From Streptomyces sp. HmicA12 (GTDB lineage Bacteria; Actinomycetota; Actinomycetes; Streptomycetales; Streptomycetaceae), in the NCBI RefSeq assembly GCF_000373565.1, contig NZ_KB891852.1, positions 248,001-312,000 on the forward strand: 64,000 nt of DNA, written 5' to 3'. Within the stretch, counting starts at the first letter, position 1; each line of letters opens with the position of its first letter. Positions 55,741-64,000 of this stretch are shown here, piece after piece. Position numbers and translations under genes: made by a program. The notes below the pieces were generated by a model. It was not told the DNA's origin. It saw only the letters and a list, made by a program, of their open reading frames with translations, and searched no databases.

Positions 55741-56690
55741 GCCGTGGCCTCCAAGGGCGTGCGGCGGTCGAGGAGGGCGGTGACGACATCCACGACCGTG
55801 TTCACGCCGACGAACAGCACCACGCTGATCAGCGCGAGCGCCTGCACCACCGCCAGGTCCTGCTTCGCGGCGCTCTGCACGAGCAGCGCCCCGATGCCGT
55901 TGACGCCGAAGGCCTGCTCCACGACGGCGCAGCCCGCGATCAGGCCGGCCACGGCGACGCCGGAGACCGAGAAGATGGGCGCGGAGGCGTTGCGCAGCAC
56001 GTGCTTGCGGACGACGAGGTGTTCCGGCAGGCCCCGGCCGCGCGCCGTCTGCACGTGCTCGGAGGCGAGTTCGGCACGGACCGCGGACCGAGTCACCTGG
56101 GCCACGTACGCGAGCCAGGTCGCGGCCAGCGCCAGTGCCGGGAGGGTGAGGTGTTCGACGCGGCCGCCGAATCCGCTGCCCGTCCCGTACGCGGGGAACC
56201 AGCTCCAGCGCACCGACAGCCACCAGATCAGCAGCACCGACATCACGAACGTGGGCACCGCCATCAGCGCCGTCGTCACCGTCGTGATGATCGTGTCGCC
56301 GATGCCGCCGCGCAGCGCGGCGAGCGTGCCCAGCGCGACGCCCGCGCCGATGATCAGCACGGCCGCGTACGCGACGAGGAAGAGCGTGTTGCCGATGCGG
56401 TCGCCGACGAGGTGGGTGACCGAGTCCTGATAGCTGAGGGACTGACCCGCGTCACCGTGCAGCAGCCCGGTAAGCCACCGCCAATACCCCTGCAGAAAGG
56501 GGTCGTCGAGGTGGTACGCGCGGTGGATCTCGGCGATCAGCTTCTCGCTGGGCGGCTTGCCCCCGCCCAGCAGCAGGGTCGCCGGATCGCCCGGCGAGAC
56601 GAACAGCGCGCCGTAGACGGCGAGGCTCGCGACGAGCGCGGTCGCCACCAGCAGCCCGGCGCGCCGGACCACGAACCGCCAGACGCTCAT
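55737..56690 (-). CDS. Peptide-type ABC importer permease (DppB/OppB type)
   Basis: 317 residues from the ATG at 56690. An N-terminal span (VRRAGLLVATALVASLAVYG) is followed by an outer loop with LFVSPGDPATLLLGG and PFLQGYWRWLTGLLHGD, four central spans, and the EAA-type loop RAELASEHVQTARGRGLPEH (about 206-225), where the coupling helix lies. The family's standard length. Both ends overlap neighbours in ATGA fashion, so expression in the operon is tightly coupled. Confidence 0.93.
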   Translation of the reverse strand: MSVWRFVVRRAGLLVATALVASLAVYGALFVSPGDPATLLLGGGKPPSEKLIAEIHRAYHLDDPFLQGYWRWLTGLLHGDAGQSLSYQDSVTHLVGDRIGNTLFLVAYAAVLIIGAGVALGTLAALRGGIGDTIITTVTTALMAVPTFVMSVLLIWWLSVRWSWFPAYGTGSGFGGRVEHLTLPALALAATWLAYVAQVTRSAVRAELASEHVQTARGRGLPEHLVVRKHVLRNASAPIFSVSGVAVAGLIAGCAVVEQAFGVNGIGALLVQSAAKQDLAVVQALALISVVLFVGVNTVVDVVTALLDRRTPLEATA

Positions 56691-58327
56691 GACGTGCCGC
56701 CCAGCATCGCCGCCCACGGCATGTTGATGTACGCGAAGGAGGCGGGGGCGCCGCTGAGCCGCTTGTTCAGGAACACGCGCTCGTACGGACAGACGATCGG
56801 GACGACCGGCAGGTCCTCGGAGTAGAGCGCCTGCCCGGCGACGAACTCCTTCGCGGAGCCCGCCGGATCGAGGGTGCTCCTGGCCTTGCGCAGATGTGAA
56901 GTGACCTTGTTGTTCCGGTACTTGATCCAGTTCAGCGGGGACGCGGGATCGGTGAACATCTCCGCGTACGAGAGCGGGTCGGGGATCTCCACGTAGCCGA
57001 GGGCGATCGTCGCGTCGAGGCCCTTGCGCAGCGCCGGGTTGTAGAACATGCCCGACATCTGGGTCGGCTGGAGCTGCCGGATCACGATCTTCAGGCCGAT
57101 CTTCTTCGCGGCGGCCTGGAGGAAGGTGAGGGTCTGCAGGGACTGCTGGTCGCCGGCGGCGGTCGCGAACGTGATCGTGCGCTGCTTCGGCGCGGCCTCG
57201 TCGACGAGCTTCCTCGCCTTCGCCGTGTCGGGGTCGGGGATCTCGGGCAGCGCCGCGTACCCCTGCGCGTACACGTCCTTGGCCTCGCTGTTCTTCCAGA
57301 CCAGGGACGGGACGAAGGTCTTCTCGCGCCGTGCGGCACCGTCGTACACATTGCGGATCAGGGCTGTGCGGTCCAGGACGAGGGAGAGCGCGTCGGTGAT
57401 GCGGCGGTCGGCGAGCGGTGAGGTGGGGCCGGTGCCGGTGAGGAAGACGGTCTGCGCCGAGGGGCCGTAGTAGAGCTTCCCCGCGTCGGAGGAGCGCAGT
57501 GCCTTGGCGACCGTGGACGGGATCTCGTAACTCCCGTCCATCTGACCGGAGATGAGGGCACTCGTAAGCGTTCCGTTGTCGGTGATGAAGCGGAAGGTCA
57601 GCCGCTTCACCTTGGGGCGGAGCTTCGTGTCCCAGTAGTGGGTGTTGCGGGTGACGGTGAGGGACTCGCCGGGCTGCCAGCGCTTCAGCTCGAACGGGCC
57701 CGTGCACATCAGGCCGCCCTTCGCCGTGCCGTAGTCCTGGCCGGCCTTCTTCAGGTACGCGGCCTTGCTGACCGCCCCGAAGCCGTTGACGAGGTACTTC
57801 AGGAACAGCTCGTCGGGCGCGCGGAAACGGACCGTGACCTGGTGGCTGCCGGTCGCCTTGATGGTCGTCACGCCGGCGAGGACGGGCGCGTTGACGCTGC
57901 GGGTGGCCGGGACGCGCTGCCGCTCCAGGCTCGCCACGACGTCCGTGGCGGTCATCGGGGAGCCGTCCCAGAAGGTCACGCCGTGGCGGAGGTTCAGGAC
58001 CAGTGTCTTCGGGTCGGGGCGGTGCCAGGAGGTGGCGAGGCCGGGCGCCGTCGAGTAGTCGGGGCGCAGCCGGATCAGTGGGTCGCAGAGGTTGGAGGCG
58101 ACCGTGCTGGGCGAGTAGTCGCCGACCCGGGCCGGGTCGAGCGTGGTGGGTTCACCGGTCGGCAGGTTCCAGGTGACGTCGTCGAGTGTGCCGTGCGCGG
58201 CGGGCGTCGTGCCGGTCAGCTTCACCGCGCCGCCGGACGAGGGGTCCTTCGCGGTGCCGCCGCCCGCGGAACACGCCGTCAGGGCCAGGGCGGTGAGAGC
58301 GAGGGCGGTGCGTCGGGGAGCGTGCAT
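56687..58327 (-). CDS. ABC importer substrate-binding lipoprotein (peptide/nickel family)
   Basis: 546 residues from the ATG at 58327. It has a lipoprotein signal with lipobox LTAC (Cys19 lipidated), then a Gly/Ser spacer and an SBP_bac_5 fold: PTGEPTTLDPARVGDYS, the HGVTFWDGSPMTATDVVASL signature (about residues 112-131), and a C-terminal domain with EDLPVVPIVCPYERVF. Peptide-family binding proteins also bind other ligands such as oligosaccharides, opines or metal complexes. The neighbouring hydrolase and amidase favour a substituted peptide or other amide/ester. It lies 59 bases after the hydrolase stop, the only sizeable gap in the operon. Confidence 0.92.
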   Translation of the reverse strand: MHAPRRTALALTALALTACSAGGGTAKDPSSGGAVKLTGTTPAAHGTLDDVTWNLPTGEPTTLDPARVGDYSPSTVASNLCDPLIRLRPDYSTAPGLATSWHRPDPKTLVLNLRHGVTFWDGSPMTATDVVASLERQRVPATRSVNAPVLAGVTTIKATGSHQVTVRFRAPDELFLKYLVNGFGAVSKAAYLKKAGQDYGTAKGGLMCTGPFELKRWQPGESLTVTRNTHYWDTKLRPKVKRLTFRFITDNGTLTSALISGQMDGSYEIPSTVAKALRSSDAGKLYYGPSAQTVFLTGTGPTSPLADRRITDALSLVLDRTALIRNVYDGAARREKTFVPSLVWKNSEAKDVYAQGYAALPEIPDPDTAKARKLVDEAAPKQRTITFATAAGDQQSLQTLTFLQAAAKKIGLKIVIRQLQPTQMSGMFYNPALRKGLDATIALGYVEIPDPLSYAEMFTDPASPLNWIKYRNNKVTSHLRKARSTLDPAGSAKEFVAGQALYSEDLPVVPIVCPYERVFLNKRLSGAPASFAYINMPWAAMLGGTS

Positions 58328-58386
58328 GAGGGTGCTCCTGATCGGGGAGTGCTGCGTGGATGCGGGGGTCCTTCGGTGCGGGGGGT

Positions 58387-60123
58387 TCAGTGCTGTGCGT
58401 GGGGTGTGGGGGAGTGCTGTGCGTCGGGTGCGGGCAGGACGGTGAGCACGAGGCGGGAGGGGAGCGCGCCGCCGGTGTGCAGGGTCTGGGTGCTCGGCTT
58501 GGCGGCGACGGTGGTCCACGGGTTCTCGTCGCTTCCCGACGCGGGCAGGTACATCGGGTAGTCGCTGCTCGCCAGGAGCAGCGCGAGCCGGTGTCCCGGG
58601 CGCAGCCGGTAGCCGGTGTGCCCGAGGTCGACCCGTACGTCGTCGGGCGCGGCGTCGGCCCGTACGCAGACCTCGCCGCGCGCGATCGGATGGGCCTGCC
58701 CGTCGGGGCCGAGGTCGAGCAGCTTCACGAAGACGTCGAACACCGGGGCGCTGCTGGTGACATGGAGGTCGAGGGCGAGCGGGCCCGCGAGGTCGAGGGG
58801 CGCGGCGAGGGCGGGACCGGTGAAGGTGAGCACGTCGTCGCGGGTGGTCAGGGGCGCCAGGTCGGGGTAACTCTGCAACTGGGCGAAGGAGTTGGGCACC
58901 AGGGAGGGGACCAGGTCCTCGGGGTCGTACGTCCATTGCGCTGCAGCGCCGCCGGGCGGGGCTGCCGATCCGTCGAGCTTGAGCCCATCGATGCCGTCGA
59001 GTCCGTCGAGCGCGTCGAGCCAGAAGGTGCGCTCGACCGCTTCGGGCGGCGGCCAGGACGTCGACGTACGCCAGCCCGCGTGCCCCAACTCCCATCGGGC
59101 CTTGGGCAGTTCACTCACCCGGCGGGTGCCCTTGAGGAACACGTCGAAGAACTCGACGGCCGGGTCCACATAGTCGGGGAGCATCCGGGCGAGGGCCGCC
59201 GGATTCGTGGCGTGGTCCGTCTCCTCGGTCGCCGGGGCGTCGGCGAGCCGGTAGTTCTCGTGGTCGATCGCGCCCGCCCACAGGTACTGCACGGCGTCCC
59301 AGCCCGGCCGCGCGGCCAGTTCCATGTAGTCGCCCATGTGCGGCGTCACGATGTTGTCGAACCAGCCCACGCAGTGCAGCACCGGCACCGGGCGCGCGTC
59401 GAAGGGGTGCAGGCCGCGCGCCGGGAACAGGTCCGTGAAGCGCGGGGCCAGCAGGTCGAACCAGGTGGAGCGGGCGCCGATCGCGCGGAACGCCTCCTCG
59501 AACTGGTCGATGACCGGGCGGACGGCGCGGTCCGGCTCGTAGTCGTACACGCCTTGGTCGACCCAGTAGTGCGCGAAGTACTCGATGCCCTCCAGCCAGA
59601 CGGGCCGGCCGACCGGAGCCGTGTTCTGCGCGGTCGCGTTGAAGTCGACCGTGGTCACGCGCGGCACGATCGCGCGCAGCGCCGGATGCTGGGAGGCCAC
59701 CGCGGCCCACTGGGTGAACCCGTAGTACGAGTCGCCGAACATGCCCACCAGCCCGTCGGACCAGGGCTGTCGGACGATCCAGTCGATCGTGTCGTAGCCG
59801 TCGTCCGGTTCCCTCAGGAACGGCACGGTCGGGCCCTCGGAGCGGAATTTGCCGCGTACGTCCTGCACGACGACCGCGTAGCCGCATGCGGTGAAGCGGG
59901 CCGCGACCTCGTCGAAGTACACGTAGCGGCTGTTCTTGTCGTAGGGGAGACGGACGAGGACGGCCGGCACGTGGGCGTCCCCGTGCTCGCCCCTGTGCCG
60001 GTCCCCGTGATCGGGCAGGTAGACGTCCGTGGCGAGCCGGACGCCGTCGCGCATCCGCACCCGGAACTCCTGGGCCCTGGACGGGACCGGGGCCGGGCCG
60101 GTGCGCGCGAAAGTGAAGGTCAT
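58387..60123 (-). CDS. CocE/NonD family alpha/beta hydrolase (X-Pro dipeptidyl-peptidase S15 type)
   Basis: 578 residues from the ATG at 60123; the upstream frame is discarded. The N-terminal alpha/beta hydrolase domain has the nucleophile Ser132 in GMFGDSYYGFTQW (residues 127-139), an Asp candidate after the WFDN segment (about 269) and a His candidate in AIDHENYR (about 302-309). A jelly-roll C-terminal domain (about 380-560) ends ...TYRLRPGHRLALLL and is typical of cocaine esterase-like enzymes. No signal peptide, so it is intracellular. It probably cleaves an ester or amide bond in the imported compound. First gene of the seven-gene operon; its promoter overlaps the operator region shared with tetR. 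Confidence 0.9.
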   Translation of the reverse strand: MTFTFARTGPAPVPSRAQEFRVRMRDGVRLATDVYLPDHGDRHRGEHGDAHVPAVLVRLPYDKNSRYVYFDEVAARFTACGYAVVVQDVRGKFRSEGPTVPFLREPDDGYDTIDWIVRQPWSDGLVGMFGDSYYGFTQWAAVASQHPALRAIVPRVTTVDFNATAQNTAPVGRPVWLEGIEYFAHYWVDQGVYDYEPDRAVRPVIDQFEEAFRAIGARSTWFDLLAPRFTDLFPARGLHPFDARPVPVLHCVGWFDNIVTPHMGDYMELAARPGWDAVQYLWAGAIDHENYRLADAPATEETDHATNPAALARMLPDYVDPAVEFFDVFLKGTRRVSELPKARWELGHAGWRTSTSWPPPEAVERTFWLDALDGLDGIDGLKLDGSAAPPGGAAAQWTYDPEDLVPSLVPNSFAQLQSYPDLAPLTTRDDVLTFTGPALAAPLDLAGPLALDLHVTSSAPVFDVFVKLLDLGPDGQAHPIARGEVCVRADAAPDDVRVDLGHTGYRLRPGHRLALLLASSDYPMYLPASGSDENPWTTVAAKPSTQTLHTGGALPSRLVLTVLPAPDAQHSPTPHAQH

Positions 60124-60171
60124 GAGGGTGAACTCCCGGAGGCAGAGCGCGAGAAGCGGGGCGCGGGGAGG

Positions 60172-60212
60172 TGCAACGCCGTGATGTAACGACGTTGTAT
60201 GACAACATTGCA
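60172..60212. promoter_or_regulatory. 41-bp imperfect dyad, candidate TetR operator (hydrolase/tetR gap)
   Basis: Centred at 60192: outer TGCAA/TTGCA arms (60172-60176 and 60208-60212) and an inner 17-bp core at 60184-60200, ATGTAACGACGTTGTAT. A partly overlapping GTTGT-ATG-ACAAC dyad lies at the right. The core is 15/17 identical to the site at 60904-60920. It starts 49 bases upstream of the hydrolase start and 45 bases upstream of the tetR start, as expected for autoregulation. Confidence 0.75.
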
Positions 60213-60256
60213 GCTCCGTGTGAACACGGTCAAGCCATTGCGTTAAGGTCGGCGAC

Positions 60257-60832
60257 ATGCCGATCGAGGTAGACGAGGCCAGGCGGCTCGACGAGATCGC
60301 CGAGGCCACCATTCAGGTCGCCCGCGAGCGCGGCGTCCGTTCCGTGACCATCCGTGCCGTCGCGCAGGAACTCGGCGGCTCCACCGCGATGGTGACCAAC
60401 TACGTGTCCAGCCGCGCCGCCCTGATGATCAACGCCCTGCGGCTCGCCGAGGCCGAGTGGGGCCGCGAGATGGCGGAGGCCCTCGACGGGGTCGAGGGGG
60501 AGGAGAGGCTGCGCGCGGCCGTGCGCTGGATGTGCACCACCGAGCGCGACGACGAGGTGCTGCGCCGGCTGCTGATGGAGATCGCCAGTGCCGGGTCCGA
60601 GGCGGGCGGGGAGATCGAGGCGGTGCGCCGGGGAACGTCCCGTCGGTACCGGGAGGAGCTCGGGGTGTTCGCGGCCGAGGCGGGGCTCGCGGACGCGGAG
60701 TTGGGGGGTGACGTGCTGCATCTGCTGCTGCGGGGGTACTGGCTCGCCACGCTCGAGGACGGGGAGCAGTGGCCCGCGGAGCGGGGGGAGCGGGCGATCC
60801 TGGCGGTGCTGGAGTTGCTGAAATCCGGCTGA
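60257..60832 (+). CDS. TetR-family transcriptional regulator
   Basis: 191 residues. An N-terminal HTH (about 10-55) has RSVTIRAVAQELGGSTAMVTNYVSS, where the recognition helix follows GGSTAMV. A helical ligand domain of ordinary size follows, ending in a Leu-rich segment. It sits divergently from the hydrolase-ABC operon and directly upstream of the amidase gene. Near-identical palindromes occur at both promoters, so it is likely the repressor of both units, released by the substrate or a breakdown product. No separate tetR promoter motif stands out. Confidence 0.9.
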   Translation: MPIEVDEARRLDEIAEATIQVARERGVRSVTIRAVAQELGGSTAMVTNYVSSRAALMINALRLAEAEWGREMAEALDGVEGEERLRAAVRWMCTTERDDEVLRRLLMEIASAGSEAGGEIEAVRRGTSRRYREELGVFAAEAGLADAELGGDVLHLLLRGYWLATLEDGEQWPAERGERAILAVLELLKSG

Positions 60833-60903: not shown

Positions 60904-60920
60904 ATGCAACGCCGTTGTAT
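60904..60920. promoter_or_regulatory. 17-bp palindrome, candidate TetR operator at the amidase promoter
   Basis: ATGCAACGCCGTTGTAT contains the perfect core CAACG-C-CGTTG and matches the core of the hydrolase/tetR operator at 15 of 17 positions. Located just downstream of the predicted -10. Confidence 0.75.
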
Positions 60921-61049
60921 TTAAGTGCGGGGCGTTGTGCTCTGCCCTGTGTGGGGGCTCCACCGGATTCGTCGCGCGCACGCGGCGGAGCCGCACGTCG
61001 ACACAGCCCCGCGCCCCTGATGAATCACCGCATCCCGAAGAGGTGCCCT

Positions 61050-62531
61050 GTGACGTATGCAAGCCCGCATGGTGAATTGTGGCAGTGGTCCGCCGTTGAT
61101 CTCGCCGCTGCCGTACGTGCCCGTGAGGTGTCCGCCGTCGAGGTCGTCGCCTCCTGCCTCGGGCGGATCGAGGAAGTGAACCCCGAGGCGAACGCCCTCG
61201 TGGAGGTGCGCGGCGAGGAGGCCCTCGCCGCGGCGAAGGCCGCGGACACCGCCGTCGCCGCCGGCGAGGAACTCGGGCCGCTGCACGGTGTGCCCGTGTC
61301 CATCAAGGTCAACACCGAGCAGCGCGGGTACGCCACCACCAACGGGATCGCCGCGCTCGCCGGGAACGTCGCCGAGGAGGACGCCGCGTGCGTCGGCGCG
61401 TTGCGCGGCGCCGGGGCGATCCCGCTCGGGCGCAGCAACGTCCCGGCGTTCTCGCTGCGCTGGTTCTCCGGGAACGCGCTGCACGGGCGGACCCTGAATC
61501 CCTGGGACCACGGGCGCACGCCCGGTGGGTCGAGCGGCGGCGCGGCGAGCGGGATCGCGGCCGGGTGCACGCCGCTGGCGCAGGGCAACGACATCGGTGG
61601 GTCGATCCGGTTCCCCGCCGCCTGCTGCGGCGTGGTCGGGGTGCGGCCGACGGTGGGCCTCGTCTCCGACTGGGCGCCGCCCGCGTACGCCGAGACGCCG
61701 GACGGGCCGGTGCCGCTCGACTTCCCGCCGACCGTGCACCAGTGCGCGGTGCAGGGGCCGCTCGGGCGGACCGTCGCCGACGCGCGGCTCGCCCTGCACG
61801 CCATGAGCACGCCCGATCTGCGCAGCCCCTACGGGGTTCCGGCGCTGCCCGGAGCGGGTGGCCCGGTGCGGCGGGTCACCGTCGTGCGCGGGATCGAGGG
61901 CGTCACGAACCATCCCGCCGTGGACGCCGCCGTCGGGGTGGCCGCGGCGCGGCTCGCAGACGCCGGCTACGAGGTCGACGAGGTCGACGAGGTCGACGAG
62001 GCGGACGGGACGGAAGGCGCGCCGCTGCTCGCCGAGGCCGCGCGACTGTGGCTGCTGCTGATCACCGAGGACACTCGTGGGCTGCTGCGGGTCGTCGAGC
62101 AGATCGGTGACGACGCCATCCGCACCGCTCTGGGCCGGCACTTCGAGGCCGCCGCGCGGGTGTGGGGCGAGCGGCCCGACCTGGAGACGTACATCAACGG
62201 GTGGGGGCGGCGGGCCACGCTCGTCACCCGGCTGCAGGAACTCCTCGGCGCGGACCGGCTGTTGCTCACCCCCGTCTGCGCCGAGCCGCCCTTCGAGCAG
62301 GACGCCGATCTCGCCGGACGTGACCGGGCCCTCGAACTGTTCCCCGCGATGTGGCCGATGCAGGCCGTGCCGATCCTCGGTTTCCCGGCGGTGAGTGTGC
62401 CGGTGGCGCTGCACGACGGGGTGCCGCTCGGGGTGCAGCTGATCGGCGGGCGGTTCACGGAGGACCGGCTGCTCGACGCCGCGCAGGCCGTCGAGGACCG
62501 GTCACCGGCGCTGCGGGTGTGGGCCCGTTAG
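61050..62531 (+). CDS. Amidase (amidase signature family)
   Basis: 493 residues from a GTG at 61050, chosen because GAAGAGG (61037-61043) is 6 bases ahead; the ATG at 61020 has no ribosome site. The Ser-cisSer-Lys triad is visible: Lys86 in VPVSIKVN, Ser161/162 in GGSSGGAASG, and nucleophile Ser185 in GNDIGGSIRFPA. The rest of the amidase signature domain is complete and of normal length. It hydrolyses an amide, releasing ammonia or an amine. The shared operator ties it to the upstream importer and hydrolase. A 130-base leader precedes it. Its stop overlaps the facing stop of the next gene (62528-62531). Confidence 0.9.
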   Translation: MTYASPHGELWQWSAVDLAAAVRAREVSAVEVVASCLGRIEEVNPEANALVEVRGEEALAAAKAADTAVAAGEELGPLHGVPVSIKVNTEQRGYATTNGIAALAGNVAEEDAACVGALRGAGAIPLGRSNVPAFSLRWFSGNALHGRTLNPWDHGRTPGGSSGGAASGIAAGCTPLAQGNDIGGSIRFPAACCGVVGVRPTVGLVSDWAPPAYAETPDGPVPLDFPPTVHQCAVQGPLGRTVADARLALHAMSTPDLRSPYGVPALPGAGGPVRRVTVVRGIEGVTNHPAVDAAVGVAAARLADAGYEVDEVDEVDEADGTEGAPLLAEAARLWLLLITEDTRGLLRVVEQIGDDAIRTALGRHFEAAARVWGERPDLETYINGWGRRATLVTRLQELLGADRLLLTPVCAEPPFEQDADLAGRDRALELFPAMWPMQAVPILGFPAVSVPVALHDGVPLGVQLIGGRFTEDRLLDAAQAVEDRSPALRVWAR

Positions 62532-63703
62532 CGAGGCTGCCGATCCCGCTCCCAGGCCTCCCGGTCCCGTACGTAGAGGGGGTCCGCCGCGGTGATCGCG
62601 CGGGTCTGCGCCGTGCCCCGGGACAGCCGCCAGCGGACCGTGCCGCAGACCCGGGCGGCGCAGGAGGAGATGAACCGGTCGCAGGCGGTGCGGAGTTCGC
62701 CGAACCAGCGTCCCTCCAGCGCCTCGCGCACCCAGAGCTGTTCGAGGTGCATCTTCTCCCGGACGGTCTCGGCGGCGAGCGTCGCCGTCTCCAGGTGGCG
62801 GTAGGTCTTCAGGAGGAGGGTGGCGGCCGGCATCTCCCGCAGTTCCAGGACCTTGTGGCCGCCGGGCAGGTGCTCCAGGCCGCTGTAGCGGCCGAGGCCG
62901 TGGGCGCCCGCCCGGTGGTTGAGCGTCTCGATCAGGGCGGGCAGCGGCAGCGGCGTACCGTCGAGGGCCGTGGGGACGCCGTGGGTGAAGGCGATCTCCA
63001 GGGTCTCGTCGGCGGGCGGCTCGGCGGGGCGGGCCGTCCACGTGTACAGGTGCTCGGGGACGGTGTGGTCCTGCGGGTCGTCGAGGACGCCCGACTCGAA
63101 CTCGCGGCACCACAGGTTCGCGTCGACGCTCGCCACCCGCTTGCTCAGATGCGGCAGGCCGATCTCCTCCAGCTCCCGCGCCTTCTGGTCGCGGTCGACC
63201 GGGTCGAGGTCGTACGGACTGCCGTAGCGCGCCGTGCAGCCGAGGAGGTCGAGGGCGCCGTTGAGGCGGCGCAGCGTGTTCTGGGACGGGTTCGCCGTGT
63301 GGATCACGGCCGCCGCGTCCAGCTCCGTGGCCAGCTCCAGGGCCAGCCGCGCGATCAGCGGGCGGCTGAGCGACGAGCTGACCGGGTGCGTGTCCAGGTA
63401 CACGGCCTGCGCGGCGATCGCCGGGCGGACGAAGGCATCGGCGAAGACCTGCCGCGCGTCCACCAGATGCAGCCGCACACCCAGGTGGTCCGTGGTGTGC
63501 CGCAGCTCCTCGGCGTCCTCGCCCGCGCCCAGGTCGGCACTGAACGCGTGGACGTCGGTGAAGCCCGCCCGGGTCAGCCGGTGCAGCAGATACGTGCTGT
63601 CGAGCCCGCCGCTGAACAGGGTGACCACCGGGCGATGCCGGTCCGGTGAGCCGTCCGTGAGGTCCGCGAAGGAGCGGATCCGTGGCCCGTGCGCCCTTGT
63701 CAC
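62528..63703 (-). CDS. Argininosuccinate synthase-like PP-loop enzyme linked to an NRPS
   Basis: 391 residues from the ATG at 63703. An N-type PP-loop ATPase with SGGLDS at residues 31-36, an FSADLGAGEDAEEL segment like the ADLGQGEE of ArgG, SRPLIARLALELATE (citrulline-site region) and KRVASVDANLWCREFESG (residues 185-202) with LYTWTARP, all collinear with argininosuccinate synthase. The ArgG loop HGCTGKGNDQ is replaced by HTANPSQNT, so nucleotide or substrate use differs. Its start overlaps the stop of the NRPS gene, so they are co-translated. A role in making or modifying a guanidino- or amide-containing building block in the NRPS product is inferred, not shown. Confidence 0.85.
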   Translation of the reverse strand: MTRAHGPRIRSFADLTDGSPDRHRPVVTLFSGGLDSTYLLHRLTRAGFTDVHAFSADLGAGEDAEELRHTTDHLGVRLHLVDARQVFADAFVRPAIAAQAVYLDTHPVSSSLSRPLIARLALELATELDAAAVIHTANPSQNTLRRLNGALDLLGCTARYGSPYDLDPVDRDQKARELEEIGLPHLSKRVASVDANLWCREFESGVLDDPQDHTVPEHLYTWTARPAEPPADETLEIAFTHGVPTALDGTPLPLPALIETLNHRAGAHGLGRYSGLEHLPGGHKVLELREMPAATLLLKTYRHLETATLAAETVREKMHLEQLWVREALEGRWFGELRTACDRFISSCAARVCGTVRWRLSRGTAQTRAITAADPLYVRDREAWERDRQPR

Positions 63704-64000
63704 CCGCGCTCCTCCCGCACTGTACGCAGCTCGGCGGTGAACGCCCGCGGCGTCGGCTCGTGGAGCAGGGCCGCGAGCGGAATGTCGAGGCCGAGCCGGG
63801 CGCGCAGCGTCTCGACGACCCGGACGACCGTGAACGAGTCGCCGCCCAGATCGAAGAAGTCGTCGTCGGGGTCGATCGCGGCCACGCCGAGCACCTCGCG
63901 CCAGACCGCGACGACGAGCTCCGCGAGATCCTCCGTGGGCCCAGGCGCGACCGGGCGAGGCGCGGGGGCGGCTGCCGCCCGCTTCTCCAGGAGCGCCCGG
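63700..64000 (-). CDS. NRPS, C-terminal end (adenylation tail and peptidyl carrier protein; 5' part outside window)
   Basis: The frame is open to the right edge. It begins with RALLEKR, the usual end of an adenylation domain after the GKxDR motif. A Pro/Ala linker follows, then a carrier domain (about 70 residues) with the phosphopantetheine site DDFFDLGGDSFTVVRV, whose Ser carries the arm, and TPRAFTAEL at the end. There is no thioesterase, so this protein ends in a carrier and either hands its amino acid to another protein or to the coupled ArgG-like enzyme. Confidence 0.88.
   Translation of the reverse strand, partial: RALLEKRAAAAPAPRPVAPGPTEDLAELVVAVWREVLGVAAIDPDDDFFDLGGDSFTVVRVVETLRARLGLDIPLAALLHEPTPRAFTAELRTVREERG

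Follow-up and report, generated by a model that had tools for sequence, protein, structure and literature searches.

The window analysed here is a stretch of 64,000 nucleotides from Streptomyces sp. HmicA12, corresponding to bases 248001-312000 of contig C55 (NZ_KB891852.1) in a genome of 9.16 Mb. At its right-hand edge lies, on the minus strand, a gene for a homologue of argininosuccinate synthase (ArgG), immediately downstream of a nonribosomal peptide synthetase (NRPS) gene that consists of an adenylation (A) and a peptidyl carrier protein (PCP) domain and continues past the window. Sequence beyond the edge was read in a stretch labelled L003, coordinates of which are converted to window coordinates by adding 57000. 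The features at the edge are:

62528..63703, minus strand: ArgG-like predicted nitrile synthetase (NF038212 argG_rel / ArtA family), 391 aa, GTG start, TAA stop
63733..63918, minus strand: carrier (PCP) domain at the C-terminus of the A-PCP protein, PP-binding 61.1 bits, residues 520-581 of the 591-aa query L003:6700-8475
63700..64000, minus strand: 3' end of the A-PCP NRPS gene, which runs past the window to L003:8454 (whole gene L003:6700-8454, GTG start)

The start of the ArgG-like gene overlaps the TGA stop of the A-PCP gene by 4 bp (GTGA). This overlap had been described in an earlier note made from the letters of the window, in which the start was taken to be ATG; the overlap stands and the codon is GTG. 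The same note was correct in that the NRPS ends in a carrier (DDDFFDLGGDSFTVVR), that the PP-loop is kept in the ArgG-like open reading frame (ORF) as SGGLDST and that a loop is changed to HTANPSQNT, at residues 135-143.

Profile searches with the ORF returned the Pfam domains Arginosuc_synth (71.9 bits) and Arginosuc_syn_C (126.8 bits), N- and C-terminal domains that the protein shares with ArgG together with the PP-loop ATPase fold. A score of 584.3 bits was obtained for NCBIfam NF038212 ('argininosuccinate synthase-related protein', cut-off 425), whereas all five ArgG models reached were below cut-off (214.7 against 334, 192.4 against 268.2, 191.6 against 512, 103.5 against 603 and 41.2 against 657 bits). 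The NF038212 cut-off was exceeded in 16 of 391 genomes of the order and in none of 14 control genomes. A true ArgG is encoded elsewhere in the genome, on contig C35; it scored 848.5 bits for NF003779 (cut-off 657) and is 23% identical to the window protein. The nearest chains in the PDB by sequence were those of a nitrile synthetase, 9lei and 9leh, with E values of 3e-91 and 7.8e-91, compared to 6.1e-41 for the best ArgG. Residues 42-419 of this nitrile synthetase, ArtA, scored 524.3 bits for NF038212, and since both proteins exceed the cut-off, ArtA and the window protein belong to one curated family.

The fold of the protein was evaluated on an AlphaFold2 model built on 50 family rows (pLDDT 92.7). 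Its best Foldseek matches were again 9lei and 9leh ('nitrile synthetase ArtA', E 6.7e-45, 42% identity). VIA-align superposed the model on ArtA with a Z score of 50.9 (1.6 Å over 381 residues) and on the best ArgG, the human enzyme, with a Z score of 42.9 (2.1 Å over 367 residues); the fold is thus closer to ArtA. In a tree of 90 rows, constructed by a quick method and leaving out L100, L101, L103, L105, L108 and L126, the window protein and nine rows from full clusters formed one clade (100). Four ArgG rows were placed on one side (100) and the other 86, including ArtA, on the opposite side, with a long branch; ArtA itself is a long branch of unsure placement among the non-ArgG rows. The phylogeny, the ArgG cut-offs and the separate true ArgG agree with the earlier proposal of a divergent homologue outside primary metabolism, and on the same three grounds the protein was rejected as a primary-metabolism ArgG. 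A sulfur-transfer or QueC-like carboxylate route was likewise rejected as only weak matches were found (LarE 15.7, MnmA 13 and QueC 17.3 bits); LarE, YcfA and QueC aligned to the model with Z scores of roughly 11-12 over 150-190 residues. One ArgG-related gene, L208 (G589:C11:49181-50272), scored 276.9 bits for NF038212, which is between ArgG-like matches (197-232) and the cut-off of 425, and is perhaps a member of another subfamily.

According to a 2026 preprint (PMC13060819), conversion of an amide to a nitrile is the only step catalysed by ArtA and NitB, and docking and mutation point to Q146, S197 and D199 as ArtA residues in contact with the amide. The source of the PDB entries 9LEH and 9LEI is probably Zeng et al. 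2025, ACS Catal., cited as reference 13 of that preprint. Residue numbers in the ArtA entry equal chain positions minus 29, and because of this offset the three residues correspond to the Q of SQNS and the S and D of SGDENL. Their counterparts in the window protein are Q141, S192 and D194. In the 50-row family alignment, the Gln was found in 49 rows and the Ser and Asp in all 50. The three ArgG chains aligned have Gly at the position of the Gln, and the Asp that ArgG carries two residues further on is replaced in the family rows by Thr (30 of 50) or Ser (20 of 50). In ArgG, this Asp binds aspartate. As ArtA is reported to convert only amides to nitriles and its three amide-contacting residues are kept, the target group is likely a primary amide, and the carboxylate or ureido group proposed earlier is not supported. 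Based on sequence and model, the ArgG-like protein is very probably a nitrile synthetase of the ArtA kind.

Other routes to nitriles that depend on ATP, as predicted here, are those of QueC/ToyM and PesC, which belong to other families, the QueC model being the 17.3-bit match mentioned above. They start from a carboxylate and take the nitrogen from ammonia or Gln, as described in the accessible part of PMC13060819.

Reading past position 64000 revealed further biosynthetic genes, as had been expected. The edge was thought to open an uncommon biosynthetic cluster; the cluster is uncommon, but it lies beyond 64000 on the minus strand and has the ArgG-like gene as its final member, so the edge closes it. 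The cluster comprises seven genes on the minus strand, in the order MFS exporter, ketosynthase-acyltransferase-acyl carrier protein (KS-AT-ACP), aminotransferase-LLM-C-PCP-C where C denotes condensation domains, M18 aminopeptidase, thioesterase, A-PCP and ArgG-like. Those outside the window are:

L003:8451-9230, minus strand: stand-alone thioesterase
L003:9238-10524, minus strand: M18 aminopeptidase
L003:10521-16076, minus strand: 1851-aa protein with class III aminotransferase, LLM monooxygenase (TIGR04020, 437.6 bits), C, PCP and C domains
L003:16073-19213, minus strand: KS-AT-ACP protein, start chosen by eye
contig C55 324158-325435, minus strand: MFS exporter (PF07690, 97.4 bits), start chosen by eye

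Overlaps of 4 bp were found at four junctions, namely between the genes for the polyketide synthase (PKS, the KS-AT-ACP protein) and the aminotransferase protein, the aminotransferase protein and M18, the thioesterase and A-PCP, and A-PCP and the ArgG-like protein. An amidase gene at window 60915-62531 on the plus strand overlaps the end of the ArgG-like gene with its own 3' end, from the opposite strand. It was rejected as a cluster member, since tblastn with a threshold of E 1e-5 did not recover it from any of the nine further loci that carry the full cluster.

These nine loci were L047, L049 and L052-L058, seven of them being among 80 relatives retained out of 147 found in public genomes. 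All ten cluster parts tested were present at L047 and L049, and all except MFS and PKS, which fall outside the stretches, at L052-L058; L047 and L054 are nearly identical. Relatives of the aminotransferase were detected in 64 of the 391 genomes and further clusters were selected from these. Four sister clusters (L164, L180, L181 and L183) have the aminotransferase-LLM core and M18 (71-74% identity) together with a different A domain, code DFW.VGMVH, and the ArgG-related gene is absent from the stretches examined. At L166, L179 and L211, the core, M18 and a close A domain are present, again without an ArgG-related gene in the stretches examined. The reverse was observed at L059, L062, L082 and L085, where an ArgG-related gene accompanies an A domain of 58-59% identity, the PKS-NRPS surroundings are of quite another kind and the core was not found in the stretches (7 kb only for L085). 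Based on these two partial cluster types, M18 travels with the core and the ArgG-related gene with the A-PCP protein among the loci examined. No M18 was found in the 18-20 kb of six clusters with a more distant aminotransferase (L182 and L184-L188, 70-74%). Three of the sister clusters, L164, L181 and L183, also encode a PF00206 lyase of the fumarase superfamily, with identities of 92 and 94% to the copy at L164. A literature search on the cluster, limited to top-ranked results, with subscription journals mostly uncovered and the name NF038212 not queried, found no publication.

The genome has two M18 genes, one of which is inside the cluster. In a search of 30 genomes, all nine that carry the full cluster had at least two M18 copies, while 19 of the 21 other genomes with an ArgG-related gene had one. 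In the two exceptions, G222 and G398, the extra M18 sits in an aminotransferase-LLM cluster without an ArgG-related gene. A starred branch in the M18 tree split 19 housekeeping copies from the cluster copies and the extra copies of G222, G243 and G398, and six fixed differences were found between the 11 rows of the cluster clade and the 19 housekeeping rows. The motifs HTDS, DHEE and SMHS were kept in all 39 rows. A pattern of target duplication, that is a second, diverged M18 next to a housekeeping copy, was thereby observed, and this is as expected for self-resistance to an aminopeptidase inhibitor. With M18 assumed to be the target, the cluster copy would act as an extra target that shields the producer from its own inhibitor.

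An inhibitor of this kind is also suggested by the assembly line. Microginins, amastatin and bestatin inhibit aminopeptidases according to the available text of PMC6930480, where the hydroxyl/carbonyl pair of amastatin is said to bind zinc, with microginin proposed to act likewise. The beta-amino-alpha-hydroxy acyl start unit of microginin is made by KS-AT-ACP and a class III aminotransferase followed by a C domain, as outlined in the accessible part of PMC12250027. The window cluster shares with the microginin cluster (mic) the KS-AT-ACP and aminotransferase feeding a C domain. A microginin-type cluster on a Planktothrix plasmid (L214), with the layout KS-AT-ACP-AMT-C-A-PCP, has an aminotransferase (AMT) 52% identical to that of the window cluster. 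It includes a fatty acyl-AMP ligase and ACP, and the LLM domain that is fused in the window cluster was not found there; among its annotated genes there is no counterpart of the M18, the separate A-PCP protein or the nitrile synthetase. A scan confined to the seven cluster genes found no fatty acyl-AMP ligase/ACP loading genes. By likeness to microginin, amastatin and bestatin, the KS-AT-ACP protein, aminotransferase and LLM domain would build an alpha-hydroxy-beta-amino acyl unit, in which the LLM oxygenase may supply the hydroxyl. The C domains would then couple this unit to amino acids, a cyano-amino acid being the last, and the thioesterase and MFS protein would assist release and export. 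A nitrile-bearing aminopeptidase inhibitor as the product is close to an even possibility, though somewhat short of it.

The M18 could instead be a maturation peptidase that trims a prodrug or precursor. It lies within the operon, where it overlaps its upstream neighbour, and the retained motifs are in keeping with such activity. As the duplicate-plus-housekeeping pattern and the domains for the alpha-hydroxy-beta-amino unit both fit an aminopeptidase inhibitor, we consider a role in maturation rather doubtful, though it deserves serious weight, and self-resistance is preferred.

Whether the predicted nitrile would be formed on a free or a carrier-bound amino acid was addressed via the A domain. 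Nine pocket positions were extracted with GrsA numbering and anchors set by eye; the resulting codes were compared between loci rather than with a table of known codes, and only for A domains at least 55% identical to that of the window. The code DM[SCVI]YLGL[VI]Y was found in all 14 distinct A domains beside an ArgG-related gene, in both cluster types, and in none of the five distinct A domains without one (DMAYLGLIH, DMSYLGLIH, DMGYLGIIY, DMVWLGLMY and DMVWLGLMY). Whole-genome searches of G202, G488, G589 and G435, which have the A domain without an ArgG-related gene, returned no NF038212 member over the cut-off. In G398, the only member over the cut-off is on contig C255 and the aminotransferase-LLM cluster on C352. 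The departure of the code in the absence of the ArgG-related gene suggests that what the A domain loads is an already completed cyano-amino acid, and is a weak hint, drawn from sequence, that the nitrile amino acid is made free and then loaded.

Free substrates are also indicated by the other genomic settings of the family. Contexts were counted by tblastn because the neighbour listing was crude, ORFs being picked by length and GC and the ArgG-related gene left uncalled in 14 of 96 loci. Removal of five identical loci and of L121, which is short, left 90 distinct loci, in which near-duplicates such as L047/L054 remain. At 44 of the 90, a PF10014 2-oxoglutarate (2OG) dioxygenase and an EamA exporter were found nearby without an A-domain match within 4.5 kb. 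The remainder were nine full clusters, 20 with an A-like domain within 4.5 kb, nine ATP-grasp, two with a dioxygenase or EamA, and six with none of these. The A-like group is mixed: identity to the A domain is no more than 26-28% in five Actinomadura rows, which, judging by this similarity, are probably other AMP-forming ligases. PF10014 members of known function hydroxylate free amino acids. The dioxygenase operons therefore point to free amino-acid substrates, and their predicted product is a hydroxylated cyano-amino acid that the cell would export. Taken together, the balance leans towards action of the ArgG-like enzyme on the free amino acid, in which case the amide would be converted first and the neighbouring A-PCP protein would then load the cyano-amino acid.

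The same nitrile chemistry could take place on a residue already loaded on the carrier of the A-PCP protein, in line with the carrier-bound substrate considered in the earlier note. The A-PCP and ArgG-like genes adjoin and are coupled, and the pair is kept across two otherwise different cluster types (58-59% identity for the A domain and 66-69% for the ArgG-related protein, versus 29-31% for C and 41-43% for AT). An A domain at L064 that adjoins an ArgG-related gene and has an unlike code would fit as well. A shift in code upon absence of the ArgG-related gene would, however, be needless if the A domain loaded the amide in both cases, albeit that the cases are few, and the 44 loci with dioxygenase and exporter lack an A-domain match within 4.5 kb altogether. 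We consequently regard conversion on the carrier as unlikely compared with conversion of the free amino acid.

With regard to the reaction, ATP would adenylate the oxygen of a primary carboxamide in an Asn- or Gln-like side chain, in the manner in which ArgG acts on the ureido oxygen of citrulline. Since the aspartate site is altered, no aspartate nucleophile would enter, AMP would leave and a nitrile would be formed. Alternatively, the enzyme could be a ligase like ArgG that joins aspartate or another amine to the ureido or amide carbon, giving an amidine or guanidine. The shared ArgG fold and the retained PP-loop are compatible with this. Against it stand the pocket changes from Gly to Gln and from Asp to Thr/Ser, the lack of any argininosuccinate-lyase-type enzyme among the seven scanned cluster genes, and the reported nitrile synthetase function of ArtA, which falls in the same curated family; we regard such a ligase as very improbable. 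A primary argininosuccinate synthase duplicated by chance beside the NRPS, to which general ArgG homology lends weak support, can be dismissed given the sub-threshold ArgG scores, the separation from ArgG rows on the tree (100) and the presence of a true ArgG.

The explanation that accommodates these results best, and that we consider probable as a whole, is a nitrile synthetase acting on a free amide, a microginin-like product and protection by M18. Several observations weigh against it. ArtA shares only 42% identity with the window protein and its reaction is taken from one preprint, PMC13060819, in its available text. The code match rests on five negative cases, of which L195 (DMGYLGIIY) departs only conservatively; the code pattern was defined after the data were seen and from the same data, and the independent pairs number two on starred branches (four on all), which puts significance out of reach. 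The A domain of L064 (35-37% identical) has the code DVFS.CIVY next to its ArgG-related gene, and G589, counted as lacking such a gene, has the below-cut-off relative of 276.9 bits on another contig. The third M18 of G243 (L165, G243:C1:6342932-6344158) falls on the cluster side of the branch with none of the tested cluster genes nearby. Furthermore, the protein that contains the first PCP includes no A domain, and as L214 is without the LLM domain it gives no check of the alpha-hydroxyl step.

In its most detailed form, the proposal is more tentative. The product would be a nitrile-bearing alpha-hydroxy-beta-amino acyl peptide that inhibits an aminopeptidase, its cyano-amino acid being made free by an enzyme of the widespread NF038212 family and chosen by an A domain with a code of its own, and M18 would mark the target; in many Proteobacteria and Actinobacteria the same enzyme, combined with a 2OG dioxygenase and an exporter, would yield cyano-amino acids that are hydroxylated and exported. 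A nitrile-bearing inhibitor of this kind was not encountered in the literature searched, and NF038212 has so far been known only as argininosuccinate synthase-related. Peptides containing nitriles are rare in nature, with auranthine called the only earlier example in the available text of the 2026 preprint (PMC13060819). The enzyme is a further member of a known nitrile synthetase type, if its predicted reaction is correct, and the surrounding cluster is a novel variant. If the proposal holds, predicted nitrile synthetases would make up NF038212, a curated family whose name reflects only its resemblance to argininosuccinate synthase. The M18 copy would then point to a target against which the product of an orphan cluster can be tested, and peptides with nitrile side chains could be found or built with the help of the A-domain code.

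Among the settings of the ArgG-related gene, the operon with the PF10014 2OG-Fe dioxygenase and an EamA/DMT exporter is widespread (L036, L098, L107, L113 and others), often with a divergent LysR gene. The dioxygenase and ArgG-related pair is also found on plasmids of Bradyrhizobium and Agrobacterium vitis (L215 and L216), with no exporter beside it in the Bradyrhizobium stretch L215. At the ATP-grasp-type loci, a protein of roughly 420-500 aa is encoded directly upstream of the ArgG-related gene (L043:5219-6652 on the minus strand, L046, L061, L072, L073, L075, L076 and L079); the L043 protein, the only copy scanned, had no Pfam or NCBIfam matches. Close to the cluster in the window itself, positions 56687-60312 on the minus strand encode an S15 X-Pro peptidase and a family-5 solute-binding protein of the peptide importer type.

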